A stretch of DNA of 64,000 nucleotides. Source: Bacteroidales bacterium. Lineage in GTDB: Bacteria > Bacteroidota > Bacteroidia > Bacteroidales > UBA932. The position numbers were made by a program, and so were the translations under genes. The stretch covers positions 103,409-167,408 of the forward strand of contig JAGBAO010000017.1 of assembly GCA_017938925.1 (NCBI GenBank), read 5' to 3'. The notes under the pieces are model-generated. The model saw only the letters and a program-made list of their open reading frames with translations. It did not search any database and was not told where the DNA came from. This document shows, in pieces, positions 3,782-36,411 of this stretch. The first letter of the stretch is position 1, and every line of letters begins with the position of its first letter.

Positions 3782-3812
3782 TTTGTGCAGTCCGTTTATT
3801 TCATTAAATTTG
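3782..3812 (+). promoter_or_regulatory. Promoter of the glpABCT operon
   Basis: TTTG (3782-3785), 19 bases, then TAAATTTG (3805-3812): a full consensus Bacteroidales promoter. The predicted start near 3819 leaves a leader of about 17 nt before the glpA ATG. No operator is evident. Confidence 0.8.
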
Positions 3813-23260: not shown

Positions 23261-26200
23261 TTAGAATGTCAGGTTAACTCCTAATGTGAATGATCTGAGC
23301 ATAGGATAACTGAATCCGTCTCCCTGTCCGTTCAGACCGCGTGATGTCGAGAAGTCGCTGTCTCCGGAGTCGATGACCTCCGGGTCGAACATCTTCGTAT
23401 ATTTCTGGATAGGGGACCATGTCAGGAGGTTCTCCATCGCCAGATATATCTTCACATTCTCGATCTTTGCCTTCTCAATGATGTGCTTAGGCAGAGAATA
23501 GTCGATGGTGAGGTTCTTCAGACGGAAATATGCCGCATTCTGCAGATAGTAGTCGTTCTCCCATGTAAGAGGACCTACGTTACGGTTTGCGGAATATCCC
23601 ACGCGACGTGTCCAGTACGGCTTCTTGTCAGCATTTGTCACCACCCAGTTGTCGGTGCTGTAGTCGATGTGGACATAATTGTCGCCTGTCTGGTCGTTCA
23701 TCAGATATGTATAAGGTCTGTTGTACATTCCCCAGAAGAATCCTGATTCACAGGCTGGATACCAGTCTCTTTGTCCCAGACCCTGGAAGAATAGGCTGAG
23801 TCCGATGTTGTTCCAGCGGAAATCGAGGTTGAGTCCGAACTGATAGCGCGGAGTGACGTTTCCGATGCGTTCCAGGTCTCCATGGTCTTCGAGGGTACCC
23901 TTGCCGACACCGATCTCTCCGTCACCGTTCACGTCGATGAACTTGAGGTCTCCTGCATAGGCCTGGAAGTTATCACCGTTCTTGTGATATGTGTCCTTGG
24001 CCCAGTTGTTGGCCTCTGCATTGGAAAGGAAGTATCCGTCGGTGCGGAAACCCCAGATCTCTCCAAGTTCCTTTCCTTCATAGTAGCCGAGGATGTCTCC
24101 GCTGATGTTGTTATACGCGGCCACCCATGTGCGGCTGTCCCAGAGACTTGCCTTTGCACTGTATGAGAACGGCTTTCCACCCAGGTCGAACTGGTCTCTC
24201 CATGAGGCAGTGAGTTCCCATCCTCTTGTGCGCAGCGCACCGTAGTTACCCTTTGGAGCCGAGGCACCATAGATTGCAGGAAGTTCGGTTCCTGTGATGT
24301 AAAGGTCCTTGGTGTCCCTGACGTAGAAATCACCGGAGAACGACAGTCTGCTGTTGAGCAGGTCGAGGTCCATACCGACGTCCCATGTATATACCTTCTC
24401 CCATGTGAGTCCGTCAGGAACATTGGTAGGGGTGCCTGCAACCGGAACTTTCGAACCGTTGAACAGAACGCCTGACTTTCCGATTCCTATGGTCTCGAGG
24501 TACTGGTATGCGCTGATGTTCGCATTTCCGAGCGCTCCATAGTTTCCTCTGAGCTTGAAGTTGTCCACTACATCCCTTGACCACTTCATCCAAGGCTCCT
24601 CAGAGACTCTCCAACCGAATGAACCGGAAGGGAAGAAGCCCCATTTCTGATTGGTAGGGAACTTCGAACTGCCGTCATATCGTGAAGAGAACTCGAAGAT
24701 ATACCTTCTGAGAAGTGTGTAGTTGATACGTCCGAAAATACCTATGAGTCCGTATGAGGCGTTTCCGTCATTGTCATTGAGGGTGATGGTAGTGAATTCG
24801 GATCCACCGTCGTCCATTAGTTCGAAGTTAGGAAGTCCGTCATAGAGGAGACCTTTGCGGGTAATGTAGTAGTACTCTCTCTTGTAGTCCTCGATATTCC
24901 ATCCTGCCACAACGTTAAGGTCGTGATTGTCACCGAGTTTAGGTGTCCAGGTGAGGATGGCGTTGGCGTTGAGGATGTCGTTGTTTGTCTTCCATACAGA
25001 CTTGTATGTGCTTTCCTGAGGGGTGTCATAAATGACAGAGCCGGGAGCAAGAGAGTACATGTTCTGTCCGCGGTACCTTAGGATTCCGTTCCTGTGCACC
25101 TTGTATGTGAAATCAGCATGCAGCTTGAGTACGTCCTTTATGATCTTGATATCCATGCCAATGGTCTCGGCAAAGGAAAGGTTGTTGTTCTGCTGCAGGG
25201 CCTTGTTCTCGTTGAACAGTGCATATCCGCCTCTCGCGGCACCGGCAGTGTAGGACCCGTCCGGATTGTAAACAGGGAAAATAGGGAATCCGTAATACTG
25301 GATGCTGCTCGGAATGGTGCTGCTGGTCGTCACGAATGGCTGGTTGTAGATGTTCCTGTAGAAATACGTGTTGGAGTCAAATGAAAGCCAGTCGGTGACG
25401 TTCACTCCGATCTTCGCCCTGAAGTTGTATCTGTGGAAATTCTCCTGGCCGACCTTGTAGATTCCGTCCTGGCCGTAGTACCTTCCGGTGATACGGAAAC
25501 TGAATCTCTTTGTGGAACCGCTGATGGACAGGGAGTGCGAGTGGGTAAGGTTGGCCTTCTTGTACATCTTTTCAAGCCAGTTGGTGCTGGCATAGTAGCG
25601 GTAGTTGCCGTCAGGCCCGATCACGACCTCTTCCTTGCTTCCGCTTTCGCGATGCTGTCTGAACGATTCGAGATAGTCTGAAGGAATGGAGAACTGGTTC
25701 ATGGCAGTCGGGGTCTTTCCCGTAGACGCGGGCGTGCGCGCGGTATTAGTATAGAATTCATAGAATCCTTCCGCCCACTGGAGACCGTCGGTGACAATGT
25801 TGTCCTCCCACATCACCGTACGCTGGTTCACGGCGACAGAACCCTGATAGCTGACGGAGACCTTTTCTCCCTTAGGGGTCTTGGTGGTAACAAGGATGAC
25901 GCCGAATGCTCCTCGTGCTCCATACACAGCGGCGGATGATGCGTCCTTGAGGACTGAGATGGATTCTATGTCATCAGGATTGACGGATGTGAGCGAGCCT
26001 TCGACTCCGTCGATGAGGATGAGGGCCGATCCGCCCTGGCCGATGGAGTGGCTTCCCTCACCGGCACCGCCCATCGATGCACGTGTCTTGAACGAGGTCT
26101 TTCCTCCGCGGACATAGATCGATCCGGAGTGGTTAGGCTTACCGTCGGACTGAATGATGTTCAGACCGGCTACTTGTCCCTGGAGCGAGCGGGCCACAGT

Positions 26201-26617
26201 GGTGTTTGTCCTGTTTTCGAGTTCCTCGCCATTGATGTTCTCGACTGCACCGACGAGCTGTGTCTTCTTCAGGGTACCGTAACCCACTACGACGGTTGCA
26301 TCGAGCATCACTGCATCTTCTTCGAGCGCGATGTCGATGACTGCACGTCCGTTGACCGGCATCTCGACTGTCTTGAAACCGAATGACTGGAAGATGAGGA
26401 CATCTTTCGGCTGAGCCTGGATGGTGTATTTTCCATCAATGTCCGTGACTACTCCGACGGTTGTACCCTTTACCATGACGGCAGCTCCCAGTGAGGGGAG
26501 TCCCGAAGACGCTTCGGTCACGGTACCTGACACAGAAATGCTCTGCGCCGCAACCGTCGCAGACCATAGGACTGATGTCAGAAGTATCAGTATTTTGCTG
26601 AGTTTAGTTAAATTCAT
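23261..26617 (-). CDS. SusC/RagA family TonB-dependent outer-membrane transporter
   Basis: 1,118 residues from the ATG at 26617, where a normal signal peptide starts (cut near VAA-QSIS); a longer reading begins inside the leader and operator and is rejected. It has a CarboxypepD_reg-like domain (about 27-105), then the plug domain with VVVGYGTLKKTQLVGAV and NPDDIESISVLKDASSAAVYGARGAFGVILVTTK, a hallmark of SusC proteins. A long barrel ends in GVNLTF with a terminal phenylalanine. First gene of a six-gene leftward operon with its SusD partner. The substrate is not readable; its neighbours suggest a phosphorylated glycan. Confidence 0.96.
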   Translation of the reverse strand: MNLTKLSKILILLTSVLWSATVAAQSISVSGTVTEASSGLPSLGAAVMVKGTTVGVVTDIDGKYTIQAQPKDVLIFQSFGFKTVEMPVNGRAVIDIALEEDAVMLDATVVVGYGTLKKTQLVGAVENINGEELENRTNTTVARSLQGQVAGLNIIQSDGKPNHSGSIYVRGGKTSFKTRASMGGAGEGSHSIGQGGSALILIDGVEGSLTSVNPDDIESISVLKDASSAAVYGARGAFGVILVTTKTPKGEKVSVSYQGSVAVNQRTVMWEDNIVTDGLQWAEGFYEFYTNTARTPASTGKTPTAMNQFSIPSDYLESFRQHRESGSKEEVVIGPDGNYRYYASTNWLEKMYKKANLTHSHSLSISGSTKRFSFRITGRYYGQDGIYKVGQENFHRYNFRAKIGVNVTDWLSFDSNTYFYRNIYNQPFVTTSSTIPSSIQYYGFPIFPVYNPDGSYTAGAARGGYALFNENKALQQNNNLSFAETIGMDIKIIKDVLKLHADFTYKVHRNGILRYRGQNMYSLAPGSVIYDTPQESTYKSVWKTNNDILNANAILTWTPKLGDNHDLNVVAGWNIEDYKREYYYITRKGLLYDGLPNFELMDDGGSEFTTITLNDNDGNASYGLIGIFGRINYTLLRRYIFEFSSRYDGSSKFPTNQKWGFFPSGSFGWRVSEEPWMKWSRDVVDNFKLRGNYGALGNANISAYQYLETIGIGKSGVLFNGSKVPVAGTPTNVPDGLTWEKVYTWDVGMDLDLLNSRLSFSGDFYVRDTKDLYITGTELPAIYGASAPKGNYGALRTRGWELTASWRDQFDLGGKPFSYSAKASLWDSRTWVAAYNNISGDILGYYEGKELGEIWGFRTDGYFLSNAEANNWAKDTYHKNGDNFQAYAGDLKFIDVNGDGEIGVGKGTLEDHGDLERIGNVTPRYQFGLNLDFRWNNIGLSLFFQGLGQRDWYPACESGFFWGMYNRPYTYLMNDQTGDNYVHIDYSTDNWVVTNADKKPYWTRRVGYSANRNVGPLTWENDYYLQNAAYFRLKNLTIDYSLPKHIIEKAKIENVKIYLAMENLLTWSPIQKYTKMFDPEVIDSGDSDFSTSRGLNGQGDGFSYPMLRSFTLGVNLTF

Positions 26618-26669
26618 AAAGCATAGGTTTGATTTCTCTGTTGCAAGCCGAAAATCTGCTATGCTTATG
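26615..26669 (-). promoter_or_regulatory. Leader hairpin covering the susC start codon
   Basis: CATAAAGCATAG (26615-26626) and CTATGCTTATG (26659-26669) pair over 11 positions with one bulged base. The ATG of susC lies within the stem. The fold could hold back ribosome binding until melted or bound. This is inferred from sequence pairing only. Confidence 0.45.
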
Positions 26670-26672
26670 ACA

Positions 26673-26688
26673 ACGGGCACGCGCCCGT
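26673..26688. promoter_or_regulatory. LacI-type operator upstream of susC
   Basis: ACGGGCACGCGCCCGT: 6-bp arms (ACGGGC/GCCCGT) around ACGC, with a central CpG as in LacI-family operators. It starts about four bases after the predicted susC transcription start. The first 14 bases are identical to the site at 37526. Confidence 0.7.
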
Positions 26689-26697
26689 AACTCAGTG

Positions 26698-26727
26698 CAA
26701 AGGTATGTTAATTTGTGTGAAAAACAA
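26698..26727 (-). promoter_or_regulatory. Promoter of the susC operon
   Basis: On the minus strand, TTG (26727-26725), 19 bases, then TACCTTTG (26705-26698). The predicted start near 26691 gives a leader of about 74 nt that carries the operator and the start-codon hairpin. Confidence 0.7.
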
Positions 26728-26764
26728 TGGTTTTGCAGAAAAAATGCAAAAAAATGTAAAAAAT

Positions 26765-26795
26765 TTTGTGGGGGGGGGAATTTTACATATATTTG
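26765..26795 (+). promoter_or_regulatory. Promoter with a poly-G spacer for the divergent lipoprotein operon
   Basis: TTTG (26765-26768), a 19-base spacer, then TATATTTG (26788-26795): full consensus. Nine of the spacer bases are a G run, so gain or loss of one G changes the spacer to 20 or 18. A-tracts at 26736-26763 precede it. The predicted start is near 26802. Confidence 0.75.
26770..26778 (+). repeat. G9 homopolymer within a promoter spacer
   Basis: Nine consecutive G's between the -33 and -7 elements. Tracts of this kind in promoter spacers switch expression by slipped-strand mispairing in other bacteria. Confidence 0.9.
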
Positions 26796-26825
26796 CCCCG
26801 CAAGACCGAGAACTGCTTTCTTAAG

Positions 26826-26856
26826 ACAATACGCCCCGTAACGTATTGTTTTTTTT
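26826..26856 (+). terminator. Terminator-like attenuator in the leader of the lipoprotein operon
   Basis: ACAATACG (26826-26833) pairs with CGTATTGT (26842-26849), and eight T's (26849-26856) follow directly. It lies about 25 bases after the predicted start and 35 before the ATG at 26891, so it would stop transcription before the gene unless read through. A short GTCC-GAAA-GGAC hairpin with a GNRA loop follows at about 26860-26871. Confidence 0.6.
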
Positions 26857-26890: not shown

Positions 26891-29764
26891 ATGAAATCTA
26901 CATTCAGATTATGCGTTCACGTCGTAGCAGCGGTTCTCTTGCTTGCCTGTGCCGAGGAGCTCAGACCAGGCATCGACCCTTCTGCAGTTCCGCCGAAAGA
27001 TGTGACGTATGACCAGACCAACTCGACTTCGACGACCCTCGGTTTCTTCTGGGAGGTCGACGACGCCGTAGAGGCTGGAGCCGTGTCTTTTACGGCCCAG
27101 ATCATCCAGGATGAAGAAATCGGAGGTGACGGCTACACGGGAAAGACCTCCCAGACCTTCCAGGCTTCATCCAGACCGAATGACGGAGCTGTCTTCAACG
27201 GTCTTACAGAAAATGCCAAATATTATGCGCGTGTCCGTGCAAACTATCCGAATTCCATATATTCAGAGTGGATATATGTGACCGGTCAGGATGGCAAGCC
27301 TGCTGTCATCAAGCTGGGTGCCGGTATTGTTTACGAAGGTATCGAGACCATAGTCGGTGCCTCTGCGAGGGTTGCGGAGGTGTCACCTTCGACAGCCGTG
27401 ATCCAGTGGTCGCTCACAGACTTTGCCAATATTGACGTGGATACGGCATATCCTGCATACATTGAACTTTATAAGGACGAGTCATGTTCCGATGTCCAGG
27501 TGTCATGGGATATAACTGACGTCTCCATGTACAAGGCCCAGCCGGCATTCATATTCTCCGGACTTGAACCTGCCACGGATTATTGGTTCGTTGTTGAAAT
27601 ACCTGTACCTTCGGAAATTGAGGGTGAGGAACCGACCGTATATCGCTCAGAACCGCTTAAGGTGACGACTCAGGAGAAGAGGGCCGTGAGAATGCCGGTT
27701 TCGGCTTCGGAGGGAGATATCATCCTCTATCAGGACTTCGGTGAACTCATCTGGGGTGGAGATGCCGTGAATATGGCTCTTGGATATTCTGCAGAGAAAC
27801 GAGGCAGCGCCACTTCTCTCGTGCAGGCAAGAGGCTGGAATCCGATAGGCGGAGATCTGGGATTCTATCTTTGCTCGCATACCACCGAGATGGGACTTTA
27901 CAACACCATCCGCAAGGCACTCATAGGCTCTGATGCCTCTCTTGCAGACTGGGCTGAACTTCGTGAGGACCTGAGCCGCGACGGAGTGCTTGCATGTCGT
28001 CCGGGTATGCTGAAGATGGGTGCATACAGCAAGCTCGGCCTCATCGTGACCCCTGAACTGTCAGCCTTGACAGAGACAGCCACCATCCAGGTGAGCTTCA
28101 AGGCTGCCCCGTTTGCAGACAACACCGATAACTACGACCCTCAGGGTTCATGCATCCGTGTGATCGAGAGGGCTGCGATCAAGAATAATATTATACAGTC
28201 TGCAGAAGTGAACAACGTGGTGTGCACGTTCGACCTTGCCAATGACACGTCGCTGAAGGAATACAGTTTCGAGATCCCTAATGTGACCAATGTATCACGA
28301 ATCGCCATCGGAGCGAAGCGTGCAATGAATGAGACAGGACAGCACCGAATGATGATCGATGACATCTGCATCAAGGTCGTCAGGTATGGCAAGACTGAAA
28401 TGACTGTGGAGACACCTGTGATATCTCTTGCTGTCGATGAAGGACTCATGATGGCAAGCTGGCAGGAGTGCAGCAACGGATTCTCGTATGATGTGGAATA
28501 CAGGCGCGTCGGAGATCAGGAGTGGATTTACGCAGGAAATACCACATATAATACCATGACCGTGGACGGACTCATGCCTGAGACTGCGTACGAACTCAGA
28601 GTCAGAGCCAAGTATTCTGAGGAATATGTTTCGCAGTGGTCTGAGGCCAAGAGCGTGACTACGCCGAAGCTTACATCCACCCTCACAGCAGAAACTCTGG
28701 TGATAACCGAATCACAGCTCGGATTCAAGTGGTACACATCCGATGATCTCGGCTCAGATATCAACAACCCTTATACCCTTTGCCTGTATGAGGGCGAGAC
28801 CGATGACGAGAACAATCTGGTGGTACAGCTGATTCTTGATGCCAAGGGTGTGCCTTCCGAGAAGATGCAGGTGGCTTCCAGCGTGAAGGATGCGATCTGG
28901 ACATCGACGACAGGTCCATGCTTCCTCTTCTCTGGACTTAAGCCATCTACATCCTATACATTGAAGATTACCAACAGGACTATCCAGCTCACAAAGAAGA
29001 TTACAGCAGTAACTGACCCGTCGAATCTTGTAGAAATTCCGGTATCTGCAAAGTCAGGTGACATCATCCTATATGAGGACTTCAGCGAGATCCTGTGGGG
29101 TGGTCTGCCGCGACTTGAGGAGTTCGGATACGGAATGCCGGGCTGGAGCTCGGAGACCAGAGGTAGCCAGAACAGGTTCCATGGCATCTATGGAACCCAG
29201 CCGCTGTCGGATTCGTCTCAGAAGCTCTATCTCGCACCTCCTACGACTCAGTATGGCCTTTTCAGCACGATGAAGAAGGCTGTGCCGAACACCCGTCTCA
29301 AGGATTGGGGCGCTATTTCTGAAAGCTATGAAGGAGATGCCGCAGGATCTCTTTGCGGTATGCCGGGTATGTTGAAACTTGGAGCTGCGAGCAGCTGGGT
29401 GCAGATCATGACACCGGAACTGGACTGCTTTGACGGACCTTCAACCATTCAGGTGTCTTTCGACATGTGCCCTTATACGGATGACGGCAAGAAGAATTCC
29501 GACCCTCTTGAGGCAGTGGTGAGGATTTTTAACGATGTGGTGCTGGGGCAGGAAGGAGGTATGGTTCAGGCTTTCAAGTCCGGAACCAAAGTCCATGAGA
29601 AGGTTGTCCCGATGAGTTCGGAACTCAAGATGACCAGGTATGACATCACATTCGAAAATGTCGCCCCGGGTTCACGCGTAGCCATCGGATCATATCGTAA
29701 GAATGAGTCCGAGACAGGGCAGCGAAGAGTCTTCCTGGACAATGTAAAGATAACTCTGAAATAA
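26891..29764 (+). CDS. Surface lipoprotein with fibronectin-like domains and two GDIIL/WGG modules
   Basis: 957 residues from the ATG at 26891, preceded by AAGGAAAG; an earlier reading from 26846 starts in the terminator hairpin. It has a lipoprotein signal (LLLACAEE, Cys 18). FN3-like beta domains lie at about 34-130 and 507-595 (VEYRRVGDQEWIYAGN, MPETAYELRVRAKY). Two copies of a module of roughly 210-230 residues begin GDIILYQDFGELIWGG (near 275) and GDIILYEDFSEILWGG (near 723); a third copy is in the protein at 11150. Each copy later has a PGMLKMG/PGMLKLG strand and a TPEL...IQVSF strand, suggesting a jelly-roll carbohydrate-binding fold. No catalytic motif is seen. First gene of the divergent operon. 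Confidence 0.75.
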   Translation: MKSTFRLCVHVVAAVLLLACAEELRPGIDPSAVPPKDVTYDQTNSTSTTLGFFWEVDDAVEAGAVSFTAQIIQDEEIGGDGYTGKTSQTFQASSRPNDGAVFNGLTENAKYYARVRANYPNSIYSEWIYVTGQDGKPAVIKLGAGIVYEGIETIVGASARVAEVSPSTAVIQWSLTDFANIDVDTAYPAYIELYKDESCSDVQVSWDITDVSMYKAQPAFIFSGLEPATDYWFVVEIPVPSEIEGEEPTVYRSEPLKVTTQEKRAVRMPVSASEGDIILYQDFGELIWGGDAVNMALGYSAEKRGSATSLVQARGWNPIGGDLGFYLCSHTTEMGLYNTIRKALIGSDASLADWAELREDLSRDGVLACRPGMLKMGAYSKLGLIVTPELSALTETATIQVSFKAAPFADNTDNYDPQGSCIRVIERAAIKNNIIQSAEVNNVVCTFDLANDTSLKEYSFEIPNVTNVSRIAIGAKRAMNETGQHRMMIDDICIKVVRYGKTEMTVETPVISLAVDEGLMMASWQECSNGFSYDVEYRRVGDQEWIYAGNTTYNTMTVDGLMPETAYELRVRAKYSEEYVSQWSEAKSVTTPKLTSTLTAETLVITESQLGFKWYTSDDLGSDINNPYTLCLYEGETDDENNLVVQLILDAKGVPSEKMQVASSVKDAIWTSTTGPCFLFSGLKPSTSYTLKITNRTIQLTKKITAVTDPSNLVEIPVSAKSGDIILYEDFSEILWGGLPRLEEFGYGMPGWSSETRGSQNRFHGIYGTQPLSDSSQKLYLAPPTTQYGLFSTMKKAVPNTRLKDWGAISESYEGDAAGSLCGMPGMLKLGAASSWVQIMTPELDCFDGPSTIQVSFDMCPYTDDGKKNSDPLEAVVRIFNDVVLGQEGGMVQAFKSGTKVHEKVVPMSSELKMTRYDITFENVAPGSRVAIGSYRKNESETGQRRVFLDNVKITLK

Positions 29765-29958: not shown

Positions 29959-32900
29959 ATGAAAAAGACATTCAAATTCATTCTTGCTGCCTTCGCAATC
30001 GTGACGGCAGCCTCATGTGCTCAGGAAATCGAAGATCCTGACGCACTTCCACAGGAAGAGGTGGAACTCGTGCCTATGACCATCACGGTCGGAGGCGAAG
30101 CGACCAAGACTACAGTTGGGGAAAACAATGCCATCAACTGGTGTGAAGATGACGAGATCGCCGTGTTCGACAAGACAGGTACAGCCCGCAAGTTCACCAT
30201 CGTTGAGGGAACTCTTGAAGGAAATACAGCAAGATTCGAGGGTGAGGTTGCGGCCGGATCTACGGATTTTACGGCAGTATATCCATTCTCTGCGGCAGTT
30301 TCAGTTGCTGACGGTGCTGTGACTGTAAATACTCCTGATGTACAGGTTCTCGATGGTGCAACCATCGCAGATGGTGCGACTGTATCTGTAGCTCAGTTTA
30401 CCAAGGACAATGCAGAGTTCACTTTCAAGACAGCCATCGGATATCTCAGGGTTGATGTAAAGGAAGCTGACGTCACTTCAATCATCGTCAAGGGAACAAA
30501 TATAGCTGGTCAGGCATCATTCAATGCCGCTGGTGAACTTCAGAGTGTCGCTGAAGGAAAGAACCAGGTGACTCTGACCCCAGCCGGTGAAGTGTTCACA
30601 AGCGGAACTTCATACTATGTGACTGTCCTTCCTGGAAAATATGCCGCCGAGGATTTCAGCATCACTCTCGTGCGCGAGACTGAACTTGCTGCTGAACTCG
30701 CAGCAACCAAGGAGGTGACCATACTCCGTAACCAGGGATTCTTCCTCGATTCAGGCAAACTTTCATACAAGTTCGTAATCAAGGATGCCCAGACCCTTCA
30801 GAAATTCCTTGACAACGCAGCCGACTACACAGCAAAGGACAAGGCCGAAATCGTGAACGACATTGACCTTACCGGCGTGACCCTTACTTCTGCAGAGTCG
30901 TTCAAGGGAACTCTTGACGGTGGTGGGCATAGCCTGAAGAACTGGACTTCTAATGCGACGGCGCTTTTTACTATATATTCAGGTATAGTTAAGAATATCA
31001 TTCTTGACTCTTCATGCAAACTCACTCCTCTGACTGGTAAAGAACAATTTGGATTCATTGCCAAGACTATTTCAAAATTTGGAGTAATGGAAAACTGTGT
31101 CAATAATGCAGATATCGTATATGAGGCTTCTACTATGGGTAAGACATTTTGGGGATCTCTGGTAGGTATATCATATGGTACGATAATAAACTGTGTGAAT
31201 AACGGAGATATCACTATTTCTATATCTGGGAATGTTACAGATAACTGTGCTATTGGCGGTCTTGTAGGTTATATAAATGTAAAGGATCAGTTTGCAGACA
31301 AAGGCGATGAGTACAAAATAGCATTCGACAACTGTAAGAATTATGGTAATATAACCTATACAGTTGACGGAACTGTTAAATACCTTATCATGGGTGGTGT
31401 TGCAGGTGGAACTTCATATAACACAATTGCAACAGCTGTATTCAAGGGTATTGCCAAGGATTGTCTTAACGAAGGAAATATTTCTTATACATTCAAGAAT
31501 GGAGGATTACTCGTTGATGACGAAGGAAATGCAGGCTCTAGTAACTATACAAATGTCGGTGGTGTGTTTGGATATTGGGAAGGCAGTATAGAGAGCTGTG
31601 TGAATGGTGCATCGGATGACAACATAATTGATGTAACTAAAGGAAATGTTAGTATGGTATTTCCGACAAATGAATCTAATGCTTGTGCATCACGTCCTGC
31701 TGTCGCTGGTATTAGTGCGTTTGTTCTTCAGAATATGGAAGGGTGTACAAACTATGGAAAGGTATATATCAAGGGAACCTCTTCGGGTGGCAATACTGCA
31801 AATGCGGGTAATGGTGTTACCGCGGAGGTGTGTGCAGGAGGTGTTGTAGCTCAGATAGGACCTAGCGGTGATGGCTCTCAATTCTCATTGTCAAACTGTC
31901 ATAATTATGGAGAACTCGATTTTAATACTTGGATGGCATCCGGTAATGGAACAGGCTATAATCACGGTGGCGTGGCTGGATATTGTAAGGTTTCGATGTC
32001 AGACTGCTCTAACCATGGCAAGATGACAGTAGTCAGCAAGGGGTCTTATAATTATACTGGCGGTGTAGTGGGACAAGCTGTATATGCTGGTAACTCTCTT
32101 AAAAACCATGGGGACCTGAACTTTACATTTAAGAAGACAACTTCAGGAAGCAACCAGATCAAGAACAATCTACACGTGGGTGGAGTTATCGGAAGGTGTT
32201 CAGGAGTGAATAAGGTAATAAACCTCAGTAACGAAGCTGGGACTATGACTGTAACTGCTGTGTCTGTTGACGGTATTGCTGCGCTTCCGCATGTAGCAGG
32301 TGTTGTAGGGTACTATGAAGGAAGCGCTACTATGGAAGATTGTACAAATATGGCGTCGATTGAATTTACTTCACCGCGTCAGACAGGTCAGATGTATTTA
32401 GGTGGTATATTGGGACGAAGCACTGATACCAAGCGAACTTATCTGAGACTTAAGAACTATGGTTCAATTAATGCTACGGTTCTGACTTCTTCCAATGGCT
32501 CGTTCAATTATATTGGCGGTGTCGCAGGAACAGATAGGCAAAATCAGACGTACTCGTATTGTGAAAACTATGGAAATATCGGTTTTGAAGGGGTTATGAA
32601 GATGAGAATTGGTGGTATTTCCGCGTATATGAATCAAACTGCCAATAATAGCATTGTTAAGGCAGATATTACAGCGAAGTGTACGAATAATAACTATTCT
32701 GAAATTGGCGGTGTAGTTGCATATACAGCTGCAACAAGTCTTAATGATTGGACATATGAGGGCTCAATTGATACATCAGAGTCGACTGCTAAGGTGTATA
32801 CAGGAGGTTTACTCGGAAAATCTAACGGAAAATCGAATTTCAACGGGTGTTCGTTCAAGGGCGAAATTAAAACTGCCGAAGGTAATAATGCACCGGGACT

Positions 32901-33093
32901 TTATGTCGGAGGCCTTCAGGCAGATAAACTTGCCATGACTTTCGGTAATTCTGCTCAATGTACTGTAGCATCAGGTTCTAAATTGAATAATTCAGAAGTG
33001 ACACAACTCAACCTTAATAACCTTGTATCACAGTCGAGCGATAGCGGTACTTATACCTCAACAGCAACATTGACAAATATAATAATTAAGTAG
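29959..33093 (+). CDS. Giant fimbrillin-like / GLUG-repeat surface lipoprotein, paralogue of the gene at 11150
   Basis: 1,044 residues with a lipoprotein signal (VTAASCAQE). Residues 35-265 are fimbrillin-like (MTITVGGEATKTTVGENNAINWCEDDEIAVFD, YYVTVLPGKY). From about 275 to the end are GLUG-type repeats (IGGLVGYIN, VGGVFGYWEG, TGGVVGQAVY, IGGVAGTD), predicting a beta-helix. Segments such as SLKNWTSN.ALF, SSCKLTP and NCVNNADI match the protein at 11150 in the same order. Base use changes within the gene: the 60 bases from 30001 have 34 G+C, those from 32641 have 20. It is probably surface-exposed and may bind glycan. Confidence 0.8.
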   Translation: MKKTFKFILAAFAIVTAASCAQEIEDPDALPQEEVELVPMTITVGGEATKTTVGENNAINWCEDDEIAVFDKTGTARKFTIVEGTLEGNTARFEGEVAAGSTDFTAVYPFSAAVSVADGAVTVNTPDVQVLDGATIADGATVSVAQFTKDNAEFTFKTAIGYLRVDVKEADVTSIIVKGTNIAGQASFNAAGELQSVAEGKNQVTLTPAGEVFTSGTSYYVTVLPGKYAAEDFSITLVRETELAAELAATKEVTILRNQGFFLDSGKLSYKFVIKDAQTLQKFLDNAADYTAKDKAEIVNDIDLTGVTLTSAESFKGTLDGGGHSLKNWTSNATALFTIYSGIVKNIILDSSCKLTPLTGKEQFGFIAKTISKFGVMENCVNNADIVYEASTMGKTFWGSLVGISYGTIINCVNNGDITISISGNVTDNCAIGGLVGYINVKDQFADKGDEYKIAFDNCKNYGNITYTVDGTVKYLIMGGVAGGTSYNTIATAVFKGIAKDCLNEGNISYTFKNGGLLVDDEGNAGSSNYTNVGGVFGYWEGSIESCVNGASDDNIIDVTKGNVSMVFPTNESNACASRPAVAGISAFVLQNMEGCTNYGKVYIKGTSSGGNTANAGNGVTAEVCAGGVVAQIGPSGDGSQFSLSNCHNYGELDFNTWMASGNGTGYNHGGVAGYCKVSMSDCSNHGKMTVVSKGSYNYTGGVVGQAVYAGNSLKNHGDLNFTFKKTTSGSNQIKNNLHVGGVIGRCSGVNKVINLSNEAGTMTVTAVSVDGIAALPHVAGVVGYYEGSATMEDCTNMASIEFTSPRQTGQMYLGGILGRSTDTKRTYLRLKNYGSINATVLTSSNGSFNYIGGVAGTDRQNQTYSYCENYGNIGFEGVMKMRIGGISAYMNQTANNSIVKADITAKCTNNNYSEIGGVVAYTAATSLNDWTYEGSIDTSESTAKVYTGGLLGKSNGKSNFNGCSFKGEIKTAEGNNAPGLYVGGLQADKLAMTFGNSAQCTVASGSKLNNSEVTQLNLNNLVSQSSDSGTYTSTATLTNIIIK

Positions 33094-33193: not shown

Positions 33194-35002
33194 ATGAGAA
33201 GACTTATTCTGATGATGTTGACGGCACTTCTTGGTCTATCCTGCACCAATGTTGAGCCCAGGAACGCCCGTCTGATCTGGAAGAACAGCGACGGCACAAG
33301 GGACACGATGACAGTTCAGCTGACTCCATGCAAGGATCACCTCAGCCTGCATGTCTCCAAGGAGGAGCTAGCAAAGGTCGATACCCTCTGCATTCTACCC
33401 GAGTTTGCGAATGCAACAGCAGGGGAGGAGGGCAGCTGGATCTATCCGTGCGGATTCGTGACTAAGTTCAAGGAGGGGCGCGAAGGAAGATATTCCCGCC
33501 ACAAGAGGCATCCTCTCCCGATTCTTGGTTACGACACCCCACGTGGGTTCTACATGGGATACGTCCGCACCTATCGCTACGATGTTTCCCATATCTCCCT
33601 CGCCGAAAAGGACCATTACACTTTCACCACGGAGCTTCGCATCGCTGATGTGGAGCCTTATGAGGATTTCCATATGGACTTCTATCCTCTTGAGGGAAGC
33701 GAAGCGACCTACAGCGGAATGGGACGCCTTTATCGCCAGATGCAGATAGAGGCGGGAAACATAGTGCCTCTGCGTGAAAGGGTCAAGACCCGCCCGGAAC
33801 TGAAATATGTTGTGGAGAATCCTGAGGTGCGCATCCGTCAGTGCTGGAAGCCGGTTCCTACTCCGGTTCTGGACCAGACTCCCGAGAACGAGCCTATGCT
33901 CAGGGTGAAGGTAACTTTTGAAAGAGTCAAGGACATCGTTGATGAGATGAAGAAACAGGGAGTAAAGGCAGAACTTTGTCTTGTGGGATGGAACCTCAAG
34001 GGCCATGACGGACGTTTCCCGACTCATTTCCCTCCTGAACCGGAACTTGGCGGTGAGAAGGCACTCAGGGACTTGATCAGTTATGCCCAGGAAAACGGTT
34101 TTCAGATCGTTCCCCATATCTGCACCGGTGATGCATATAAGGTATCGGAGGACTGGAATGAAGCGGATATCGCCAAGAACCCTGACGGTTCTTTGAGCAC
34201 ACATGCTGTGTATGGTTCCGGCAGGATGTATGACATGTGCTATAAGGTTGCTTTTGAAAAGCATGCCCAGAAGATTCATGACCGTCTTGCGGACATGGGA
34301 TTCCGTGGTCTCCTTTACAACGACGTATATTCGATAGTCCCTCCGACCGTATGCCATGACCCTGATCATCCGGTCAACTCAAAGGAAGCCCAGATGTGGG
34401 GTTATAAGACCTTCGAGGATGGAGCGAAGAAACTTGGCGGCATCGCATCAGAGGGCGGCTACGACCATCTGGCTCCCATCCTGGACTATTGTCTTTATAC
34501 TATCATGTCCCCTGACTATGGCAACATCGATGTCAGGCCGATGCGTGACGGCTATGTCCCTCTCTGGCACATTGTCTATAACGGCACGATCCTCAGCTGC
34601 CCGATTTCAAGCTGTGTGAACTACACCGTAAAGGAACCTTCCGTTGCGATGAAGCAGCTGGAGTACGGCGGACACCCGACATATTACTTCTATTCGGCCC
34701 ATCGCGACGATGCGGCCAACTGGATGGGCGGACGCACCAAGACAGGTGTTTCCAAGGACCTGCTCTGCGGCACTCAGCAGGAACTGGAAGAAGCTGTGGC
34801 GGCTATCAGAAAGGGCTGCGACCATCTTGCAGAGTACGGACATCTCCAGTATGAATTCATGGAAGACCATTGTGAGCTGGCTCCTCAGGTGTTCAGGACT
34901 CTCTGGTCAGATGGCACCGAACTGATATGCAACTATACGGAAGAGCCTTACACATACAAAGGAGTGGAAGTCTCTCCGTCAGACTATAAATATTTCAGAT
35001 AA
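33194..35002 (+). CDS. Putative TIM-barrel glycoside-hydrolase-like lipoprotein (DUF5696-like)
   Basis: 602 residues with a lipoprotein signal (LLGLSCTN, Cys 17). A beta-sandwich N-terminal part (about 20-210) precedes a barrel-like region with VKAELCLVGWNLKGHDGRFP, LGGEKALRDLISYAQENGFQIVPHI and FRGLLYNDVYSIVPP. The pattern resembles the barrel of DUF5696 and of GH101/GH129-type proteins, where an Asp at a strand end (here in YNDVYS) is the nucleophile. I am not sure of the family. It starts a two-gene unit with the propeller protein at 35008 and lies in the same locus as GH27 and GH3 enzymes, so an exo-acting glycosidase is the best guess. Confidence 0.6.
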   Translation: MRRLILMMLTALLGLSCTNVEPRNARLIWKNSDGTRDTMTVQLTPCKDHLSLHVSKEELAKVDTLCILPEFANATAGEEGSWIYPCGFVTKFKEGREGRYSRHKRHPLPILGYDTPRGFYMGYVRTYRYDVSHISLAEKDHYTFTTELRIADVEPYEDFHMDFYPLEGSEATYSGMGRLYRQMQIEAGNIVPLRERVKTRPELKYVVENPEVRIRQCWKPVPTPVLDQTPENEPMLRVKVTFERVKDIVDEMKKQGVKAELCLVGWNLKGHDGRFPTHFPPEPELGGEKALRDLISYAQENGFQIVPHICTGDAYKVSEDWNEADIAKNPDGSLSTHAVYGSGRMYDMCYKVAFEKHAQKIHDRLADMGFRGLLYNDVYSIVPPTVCHDPDHPVNSKEAQMWGYKTFEDGAKKLGGIASEGGYDHLAPILDYCLYTIMSPDYGNIDVRPMRDGYVPLWHIVYNGTILSCPISSCVNYTVKEPSVAMKQLEYGGHPTYYFYSAHRDDAANWMGGRTKTGVSKDLLCGTQQELEEAVAAIRKGCDHLAEYGHLQYEFMEDHCELAPQVFRTLWSDGTELICNYTEEPYTYKGVEVSPSDYKYFR

Positions 35003-35007
35003 GATTC

Positions 35008-36411
35008 ATGAAGAAATACCTGTTTTACGTTATATGGCTTTCTGCCATCATTCTGGGACTCTGGGGTGCGGTGTCGGCACTGACCCGCCCGGTTCTGGAG
35101 GATGTTCAGATCAGTGTGATCGACAGTCTCTGGACTGTGGAGCCGGAATATGATGCCCTGGGCAACAGCATGCATGCGTTTGTGACCCTGGGAAAGGATG
35201 AGCGCTGCGTCATGTCCGCGACCCTCAAGGGACGTCCTGCAAAAGGGGAGATGATCGGCTACACCTTCCGCAAGGATGATGACAACCGCTTCCTTTTCGG
35301 AAAGCAGAACATCGACGGACAGTCCTATATGGTGATATACCGTGTCTTCCAGGGCGTGGAAATTCTTCAGGAGAAGACCTTGCTGTCACGCAGGCAGGCG
35401 CGCGGCCCTATATATCTGCGTATGACTGCAAAGAACGGCCGTGTCCGTTTCTACTATGCCTTCGAACCTTTCGACAGGTGGGAGACAGACGGATGGACCA
35501 GGCTCGGCATAATGGAAGGCTGGACAGTCCAGGTGAAGCAGGACGGGAAGAAGGGATATCAGATCGGTCTTTACAATGGCGCCGGTCTCGTTCAGGAGCT
35601 GGGACCTCATAAGGCGGAGCCGATGCAGCCGATGGACACCGTTCTTGTCTGCACGATCCCTCCGACTGTCAGAAACGGAAAGTATTATTCCTGCCAGGGC
35701 CTCGGTATCTATGGAAATCGTGCCGTGATCATCCGCGACAAGGGCTGGTGCGAGATCTATGATCTTGAGAAGAAGCAGACTGAGAGCTTCTATAAGCTGG
35801 AGAACAACGACTCCCATTGCAACAATGCCGTCTTCGGACCATCAAAGCTTTCCGAGGATTCCCTGTTCCCTCTGATGTACATTTCGGAGGACAACGGAGG
35901 CCATGCCTGCTTCGTGACGGAGCTTGGCTGGGACAGTTCCCGTATAGTTCAGAAGATCTATTATGACGGTGACAAGGAGTCCTATCCTGGTCCTATCGAC
36001 TGGATTGTGGACAGGGAGAACGGGCATATCTACACCTATGGCGGTGTACGTTGGGGAATGAGGTGGCTCAAGGGCTTCCGTCTGCCTTCGCTTGACGATT
36101 CGGATGAGAACGGTGAGGTCCATCTCACCCCTGAAGATGTCATCTTCGAGATGACCTACAATGAGGTGGGGATCGGACAGGGCGGATTCATCAAGGATGG
36201 AAAGGTATATTTCTCAGCCGGTTATCCTCCGTTCCACTGCAAGCTTCATGTCTTTGATATGGAGGCGAAGGAAGAGATCCTGTGCCAGGAACTTCTACCG
36301 CTTCAGTATGAGCCGGAGGGAATCGAGATAGTGGGGGATAAGCTCTACACCGTCTTCTGGTGCAGGGGTGGAGTGACAAAGATATATGAGTTCTCCCTTC
36401 CTACCCTTTGA
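35008..36411 (+). CDS. Membrane-anchored beta-propeller-like protein
   Basis: 467 residues. A single N-terminal membrane segment (YLFYVIWLSAIILGLWGAV) anchors it. Residues 45-200 form a domain with FRKDDDNRFLFGKQNIDGQ and RLGIMEGWTVQVKQ, perhaps lectin-like. The C-terminal 250 residues have blade-like repeats (YSCQGLGIYGNRAVIIRDKG, IDWIVDRENGHIYTYGG, IGQGGFIKDGKVYFSAG) and match the 296-residue protein at 38983. No enzyme motif is seen. It follows the barrel enzyme by five bases and overlaps the convergent regulator gene by 11 bases. Confidence 0.6.
   Translation: MKKYLFYVIWLSAIILGLWGAVSALTRPVLEDVQISVIDSLWTVEPEYDALGNSMHAFVTLGKDERCVMSATLKGRPAKGEMIGYTFRKDDDNRFLFGKQNIDGQSYMVIYRVFQGVEILQEKTLLSRRQARGPIYLRMTAKNGRVRFYYAFEPFDRWETDGWTRLGIMEGWTVQVKQDGKKGYQIGLYNGAGLVQELGPHKAEPMQPMDTVLVCTIPPTVRNGKYYSCQGLGIYGNRAVIIRDKGWCEIYDLEKKQTESFYKLENNDSHCNNAVFGPSKLSEDSLFPLMYISEDNGGHACFVTELGWDSSRIVQKIYYDGDKESYPGPIDWIVDRENGHIYTYGGVRWGMRWLKGFRLPSLDDSDENGEVHLTPEDVIFEMTYNEVGIGQGGFIKDGKVYFSAGYPPFHCKLHVFDMEAKEEILCQELLPLQYEPEGIEIVGDKLYTVFWCRGGVTKIYEFSLPTL

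Follow-up and report, generated by a model that had tools for sequence, protein, structure and literature searches.

Can a run of nine guanines, placed within the spacer of a promoter, act as a phase-variable switch for the surface genes behind it? The question is raised by the rightward promoter at 26765-26795 of the window, i.e. the whole stretch of 64,000 nucleotides analysed here, for which an initial annotation had suggested that slippage in the tract alters the expression of a surface operon. On the comparisons described below, slipped-strand phase variation through the promoter spacer is probably the best explanation of the G9 tract, and we assign it a probability of about 0.7.

The promoter and its neighbourhood

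The promoter elements and the neighbouring genes are compiled in Table 1. In excerpts of PMC7366714, the Bacteroidetes promoter is described as TTTG around -33 combined with TAnnTTTG at -7, and the predicted promoter at 26765-26795 has the features expected for the primary sigma factor: TTTG at ~-33, TAnnTTTG at ~-7 and a spacer of ~19. The full consensus with a 19-base spacer containing G9, as first annotated, is borne out as an exact match. The spacer (26769-26787) consists of T, then G9, then AATTTTACA; the tract is located entirely between both core promoter elements, as in the spacer homopolymers of the porA/opc/fetA type, and outside the annotated open frames of the window. Transcription is predicted to begin immediately after 26795. 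Searching both window strands for TTTG-N16..23-TAnnTTTG returned five full-consensus sites, at 3782, 26765, 57479 and 63753 on the plus strand and at 645 on the minus strand, with a spacer of 19 in 5/5. The recurrence of the 19-base spacer claimed for 3782, 57479 and 63753 is confirmed by this motif search, and the site at 645 comes in addition.

Table 1. Promoter elements, tract and neighbouring genes, with positions in the window
Feature	Position	Strand	Basis
Divergent SusC-type TonB-dependent receptor	23261..26617	-	profile search
-7 element TACCTTTG of the divergent susC-type promoter	26698..26705	-	promoter motif scan
-33 element TTTG of the rightward promoter	26765..26768	+	exact match; consensus from excerpts of PMC7366714
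Promoter spacer, 19 bases	26769..26787	+	motif search
G9 homopolymer, proposed slippage tract	26770..26778	+	sole G/C run of at least 6 in the window
-7 element TATATTTG	26788..26795	+	motif search
Terminator-like hairpin with T8 in the 5' leader, possible attenuator	26823..26856	+	hairpin search
957-aa lipoprotein with fn3 domain, first downstream gene	26891..29764	+	profile search, lipoprotein-type signal
1044-aa protein, lipoprotein-like start, weak GLUG match below cut-off	29959..33093	+	profile search
602-aa DUF5696/DUF6259 protein, glycosidase-like	33194..35002	+	profile search
467-aa protein, weak GH43_C2 match below the Pfam cut-off	35008..36411	+	profile search

To the left of the promoter, a SusC/SusD pair is found in the opposite orientation. 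Since the minus-strand -7 element of the divergent susC-type promoter runs from 26705 to 26698, the G9 tract is not within the spacer of that promoter. On the right side, a surface or exported product is indicated by the predicted lipoprotein-type signal of the window gene, and the third and fourth downstream genes (33194..35002, 35008..36411) are only weakly glycosidase-like. The "fimbrillin-like" label given to the putative operon at first is without profile support: no fimbrillin profile matched the downstream genes, including the second (29959..33093), which gives a weak GLUG match at most. No tRNA gene was detected in the 64,000-nt window, and no Rfam family matched between 20000 and 37000 up to an E value of 0.5.

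The terminator-like hairpin is situated downstream of the promoter and upstream of the first start codon. A comparable hairpin with a T-run is present in the orthologs L063-L067, where a G-C pair takes the place of an A-U pair of the window. The hairpin is possibly an attenuator of transcription, which would constitute a second layer of control. A GCAAnnCCGA-like element occurs in two copies of the same direction (about 26642-26690 and 26799-26845) flanking the divergent promoters; these copies were recognized by eye, are visible in six aligned loci, and are absent from the repeat-finder output.

The region around the tract also contains a pair of arms (26746-26761 and 26781-26796; 16 nt each, 88% complementary) that flank the -33 element and the tract, from which one might suppose that DNA inversion via this inverted repeat turns the promoter on and off, as is usual in Bacteroidales. 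We regard this explanation as hardly credible, because the repeat is imperfect and AT-rich, none of the four other tract promoters tested has a flanking inverted repeat, and inversion would leave the variable length of the G-run unexplained. As a candidate for the Bacteroidales class of invertible promoters the locus was rejected. The right arm of the imperfect 16-nt pair overlaps the -7 element. Two longer-range inverted-repeat pairs are 75% complementary over 24 nt and 93% over 15 nt. A G-quadruplex was rejected by reasoning, since four two-G runs with their loops cannot be formed from nine Gs.

Long G and C runs and their promoters across the genus

In the window, the counts of G or C runs with a length of exactly 3, 4 and 5 are 889, 131 and 9, followed by none of 6-8 and a single one of 9. 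The source genome (2.67 Mb, 34 contigs) has long G/C runs at 28 places, distributed as 1/21/6 for lengths of 7/8/9 and none of at least 10, so that 27 of them have at least 8 bases. Extrapolating the decay to a 2.67-Mb genome gives ~0.1-1.2 expected runs of 8 and 0.01-0.2 of 9, i.e. at most about 1.4 runs of at least 8 versus the 27 observed (all of 8-9), and a random homopolymer was rejected on this basis. The G9 feature is real and non-random, and the two-peaked distribution of run lengths is taken as a sign of maintained tracts. The slippage reading gains support from the excess of G8-G9, given that G7 is nearly absent from the genome and G6-G8 are wholly absent from the window.

We searched for TTTG-N0..8-G7-N1..13-TAnnTTTG, a pattern that allows spacers of 8-28. 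The 400 genomes of the genus, including the source, contain 44 G-tract promoters in 33 genomes, with tracts of G7-G12, whereas the reversed pattern gave 2 matches in the same genomes, both in one genome. The spacer is 17-23 in 36/44, and the -7 element is TATATTTG in 34/44, as opposed to 6/47 ordinary promoters with spacer 19-20, a set that includes a few loci from other genera. The C-tract version of the search returned 17 matches in 13 of these 400 genomes versus 1 reversed. No excess was observed in the order outside the genus (293 genomes), with 11 G-pattern matches versus 11 reversed. Other genera of the family (138 genomes) gave 7 matches versus 2 reversed; because only 2/7 of the spacers fall within 17-23, a tract-promoter system is not claimed for the family outside the genus. 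The totals for the reversed controls (G, C, order, family and G8CAG searches) are manual sums from tables. Given the excess in the genus and none in the order outside it, the tract-promoter architecture is, as judged from these counts, concentrated in this genus, which we presume may be the Cryptobacteroides of GTDB. That the full-consensus case was found in just 33/400 genus genomes weighs against the slippage reading. In one genome of another family (G477), two tract promoters with spacer 18 stand upstream of proteins with signal-like starts (L122 and L127); this is possibly an independent case outside the genus.

The runs were also scored for their fit to a promoter spacer. Among 83 runs of at least 8 in six genomes, 13 showed 9 or 10 of the 10 consensus bases, compared with 0 in the reversed control and 0 on the C strand; four of the six genomes (G361, G265, G327 and G186) had been picked for already known tract promoters, while G005 had not. 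With a score of at least 9, the fit was found for 3/26 runs of the source genome (26 of its 27 runs, two copies with identical near flanks being merged) and for 0/11 in G005. The multi-genome run comparison covers rows from 8 of 13 genomes, among the matches listed. Most long G runs of the source genome and G005 thus lie outside promoter spacers, which is a further point against slippage in promoters, and so is the placement of 20/28 source-genome runs inside open frames (see below).

The products of the genes behind tract promoters seem to be predominantly exported. A signal- or lipoprotein-like N-terminus was assigned by a home-made rule to 31/36 ORFs after tract promoters versus 18/42 ORFs of the window (p 1e-4), the latter being a surface-rich comparison set. 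This count covers tract promoters with spacers of 17-23, leaving out 8/44 outside the range; G298 and G392 have identical promoter strings, for which a single locus was read, two near-identical promoters are common to G186 and G265, and one G130 copy was scored "no" from a wrong short frame. Ten of the downstream proteins were subjected to a Pfam scan, in which six matched (two SusC-type receptors, two BACON, one DUF3575 and one MORN/TonB_C) and four were without a match.

Tract and spacer lengths among relatives

The G-numbered genomes are drafts and the named ortholog genomes are MAGs. Alignment of G186 with G265 over 2217 bases revealed 10 substitutions and 2 indels, both located in poly-G promoter spacers: G8/G9 at one promoter and G10/G9 at the other, i.e. 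changes in opposite directions. Four promoters of G130, whose gene starts are alike, have tracts of G7, G8, G8 and G10. Between C72 and C147, the tract length changes by one G, alongside 15 substitutions and one other indel in 239 bases. The G130 lipoprotein start occurs in four copies near contig ends (L035, L055, L056 and L057, with G10, G7, G8 and G8), which look like a multi-copy surface gene family. Conversely, G298 and G392 differ by 333 substitutions and 28 indels over 2727 bases, yet both have kept G9, and this constancy weighs against the slippage reading.

One could ascribe the tracts to errors of assembly or base calling, as homopolymers are error-prone and the genomes are drafts. 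We consider such an artefact very improbable: base calling would not yield the placement in promoters, the concentration in the genus or the contrast with the reversed control; long open frames pass through many G8 tracts of the source genome; and the G186/G265 indels are the only two in the aligned bases, with opposite directions.

The MORN/TonB_C gene of G265 and its four homologues (59-66% identity) are preceded by a G-tract promoter in 5/5, with tracts of G8, G10, G9, G9 and G9 and a spacer steady at 21-22. Among 23 distant homologues (at most 45% identity), a full-consensus G-tract promoter was found in 0/23; one of the distant homologues, in G391, has C8 shortly upstream of a -7-like element. 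When related tract promoters were grouped, a comparison confined to tract promoters, more than one spacer length was present in 7/7 groups with several members, and in 2/7 the tracts are equal and the difference originates from other spacer bases. Both the latter differences and the steadiness of the MORN/TonB_C group count against slippage.

At the window locus itself, the GTDB species assemblies provided five clear orthologs of the first downstream lipoprotein and one weak match, from sources that include one titled water-buffalo reticulum and, for the weak match, horse faeces. The ortholog UBA3764, on the same contig as that of G361, has G10 with a spacer of 21 followed by the orthologous lipoprotein gene. 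The other four of the five clear orthologs (RUG12515, RUG14270, UBA2861 and RGIG7893) are without a G-tract, which weighs against the slippage reading; the tract is accordingly no conserved feature of the promoter at this gene. With G10 in one ortholog and no tract in four, the tract at this locus has evidently been gained or lost at least once. The promoter region was matched in 11 of 200 genus genomes searched, the source included; in G009 and G081 the match extends into the orthologous gene, and both are without the tract. No genome with identical flanks at the window locus was found among the GTDB species assemblies and genus genomes.

Spacer lengths were compared between loci of the window and fetched loci, which are mostly of the genus (that of L068 is uncertain) and do not constitute a random sample; a tract is defined here as a G or C run of at least 6. 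The ordinary promoters with spacers of 17-23 (n=54) are found 35 times at 19, 11 times at 20 and 0 times at 17 or 18. The tract promoters, on the other hand, are distributed as 3/5/8/7/14/8/1 for spacers of 17/18/19/20/21/22/23 (n=46). A spacer of 19-20 is present in 46/54 ordinary versus 15/46 tract promoters (Fisher p 1e-7), and in 40/47 versus 10/33 groups after merging relatives (p 1e-6). The proposed 19-base optimum holds for ordinary promoters and is weakened as an argument by the tract promoters, which peak at 21. Because of this peak, G9 at spacer 19 may not be the strongest state. The scatter can be read, as one reading, as a snapshot of ON and OFF states. The peak at 21, together with the MORN/TonB_C group at 21-22, suggests that a poly-G spacer may instead have a longer optimum of its own. 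In excerpts of the Bacteroides thetaiotaomicron promoter map (PMC7366714), the spacer is described as variable in length, which also has to be weighed against the slippage reading.

Two further explanations depend on these data. In the first, the tract is hypermutable and without a regulatory role; promoter spacers tolerate length changes and G runs survive by neglect. The scatter of the tract-promoter spacers and the four orthologs that do without a tract would be compatible with this. Neglect seems nevertheless unlikely, as it does not account for the lack of an excess of the pattern elsewhere in the order, the confinement of 36/44 matches to spacers of 17-23, the dominance of products with export signals, the retention of the tract by one gene family across species at ~60% protein identity, or the lack of any ordinary promoter at spacer 17 or 18. 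In the second, the G-run is a fixed structural element, in which an altered helix with a need for ~21 bases makes a strong constitutive or regulator-dependent promoter. This idea fits the peak at spacer 21 (14/46), the common -7 element of the 34/44 promoters and the constancy of the MORN/TonB_C group, but it is difficult to reconcile with lengths from G7 to G12, single-base differences between near-identical loci, the existence of C-tracts and the spacer of 19 in the window promoter itself. We judge it distinctly improbable.

The putative switch and its parallels

The interpretation of the initial annotation is supported in part. Its core, a slippage tract within the spacer of a promoter that precedes surface genes, as something new for Bacteroidales, is well supported by the comparison, the basis being the recurrence in the genus, the tract-only indels of other species, the G10 ortholog, the spacer scatter and the predicted export. 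In the slippage reading, the G9 homopolymer would be hypermutable, and the promoter whose spacer contains it would be of the standard Bacteroidales primary-sigma type. During replication, slipped strands would presumably mispair and add or remove Gs, and the distance from TTTG to TATATTTG would shift by single bases. The altered spacing would change the contacts with the sigma factor, and transcription of the downstream surface lipoprotein genes might be raised, lowered or stopped. Cells of one population could then differ in their surface layer in a heritable and reversible manner, presumably to their benefit. We expect that contraction and expansion both alter the activity. We predict that a promoter contracted to spacer 18 is close to OFF, because 0/54 ordinary promoters have this spacer, and that one expanded to spacer 20 remains active.

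The initial annotation cited Neisseria for promoter-spacer homopolymers; excerpts of PMC2791445 describe, for porA, opc and fetA of Neisseria meningitidis, an unstable homopolymer between -10 and -35 that is thought to alter sigma-factor binding, and titles cited there refer to variable expression with the size of the tract or spacing. These spacer homopolymers are, by analogy, the closest described case, sharing a homopolymer within the core promoter spacer. The Neisseria promoters, however, are of the -35/-10 type of Proteobacteria, whereas TTTG/TAnnTTTG is that of the Bacteroidetes primary sigma factor; expression that varies with length is named in the titles cited for them and is a prediction for the window tract; and here the architecture is found at many loci across one genus, including those of SusC-type receptors and lipoproteins. 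In Helicobacter pylori sabA, an intergenic T-tract near the core promoter undergoes slipped-strand changes with graded output, as described in excerpts of PMC4081817. The intergenic placement near the core promoter is alike, but the sabA tract adjoins the -35 element outside the spacer and, according to these excerpts, acts through local DNA structure, not mere spacing. The tract is also similar in length to the coding G-tracts of Campylobacter, Helicobacter and Neisseria, of which a coding G9 tract of H. pylori is given as an example in excerpts of PMC12003011, and the source genome likewise has many G8 tracts inside open frames. Coding tracts work by frameshift, in contrast to the window G9 outside annotated open frames.

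Phase variation of surface products in Bacteroidales is described as promoter DNA inversion in excerpts of PMC12632263 and PMC11868660. The switch proposed here would have in common with it a random control of surface products at the promoter level, in the same order. Invertible promoters differ in being recombinase-mediated and in lacking a homopolymer; the window promoter has an imperfect inverted repeat, and none was found around the four other tract promoters tested. Among the papers listed by searches of open-access full text, none was found to report homopolymer or slippage phase variation in Bacteroidetes or Bacteroidales. The terms "homopolymer", "slippage" and "slipped" are absent from the excerpts of PMC12632263, and those of PMC11868660 contain no homopolymer case for the order. 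The locus is best read as a probable case of a mechanism already known elsewhere, in a lineage and a type of promoter that would both be new for it. If this is true, surveys restricted to inversion would miss surface variation in a genus of more than 400 species. From the natural length series, one could measure which spacing the primary sigma factor of Bacteroidetes requires, and the system is testable since existing metagenome reads give access to the tract lengths.

A wider reading, to which we give an even chance, is that the G7-G12 and C7-C10 tracts of the genus form a slippage phasome, i.e. contingency switches that diversify the cell surface. Taken jointly, and with the same balanced confidence, some of these tracts would act in promoter spacers and others in the frames of SusC-type receptors, lipoproteins and regulators. 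Such a phasome, if true, would represent a second, homopolymer-based strategy of phase variation besides the DNA inversion for which the order is known. Slippage within coding frames, as a variant of this strategy, is possible because 20/28 long runs of the source genome are inside open frames of at least 180 aa on either strand, several of them early in SusC-type genes, close to the 5' end.

The source genome contains 15 instances of G8 followed by CAG, mostly within open frames (e.g. L069, L071, L073, L085 and L115), versus 0 for the reversed string; the numbers for 118 other genus genomes are 38 versus 20. Two ORFs named by eye as sigma-factor-like (C5:276470 and C13:15973) have the same start and an early in-frame G8CAG each. 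At ~1501-1509 of L004, a regulator named by eye as DeoR-like changes frame across a G9 tract, in the manner of a frame-switched gene.
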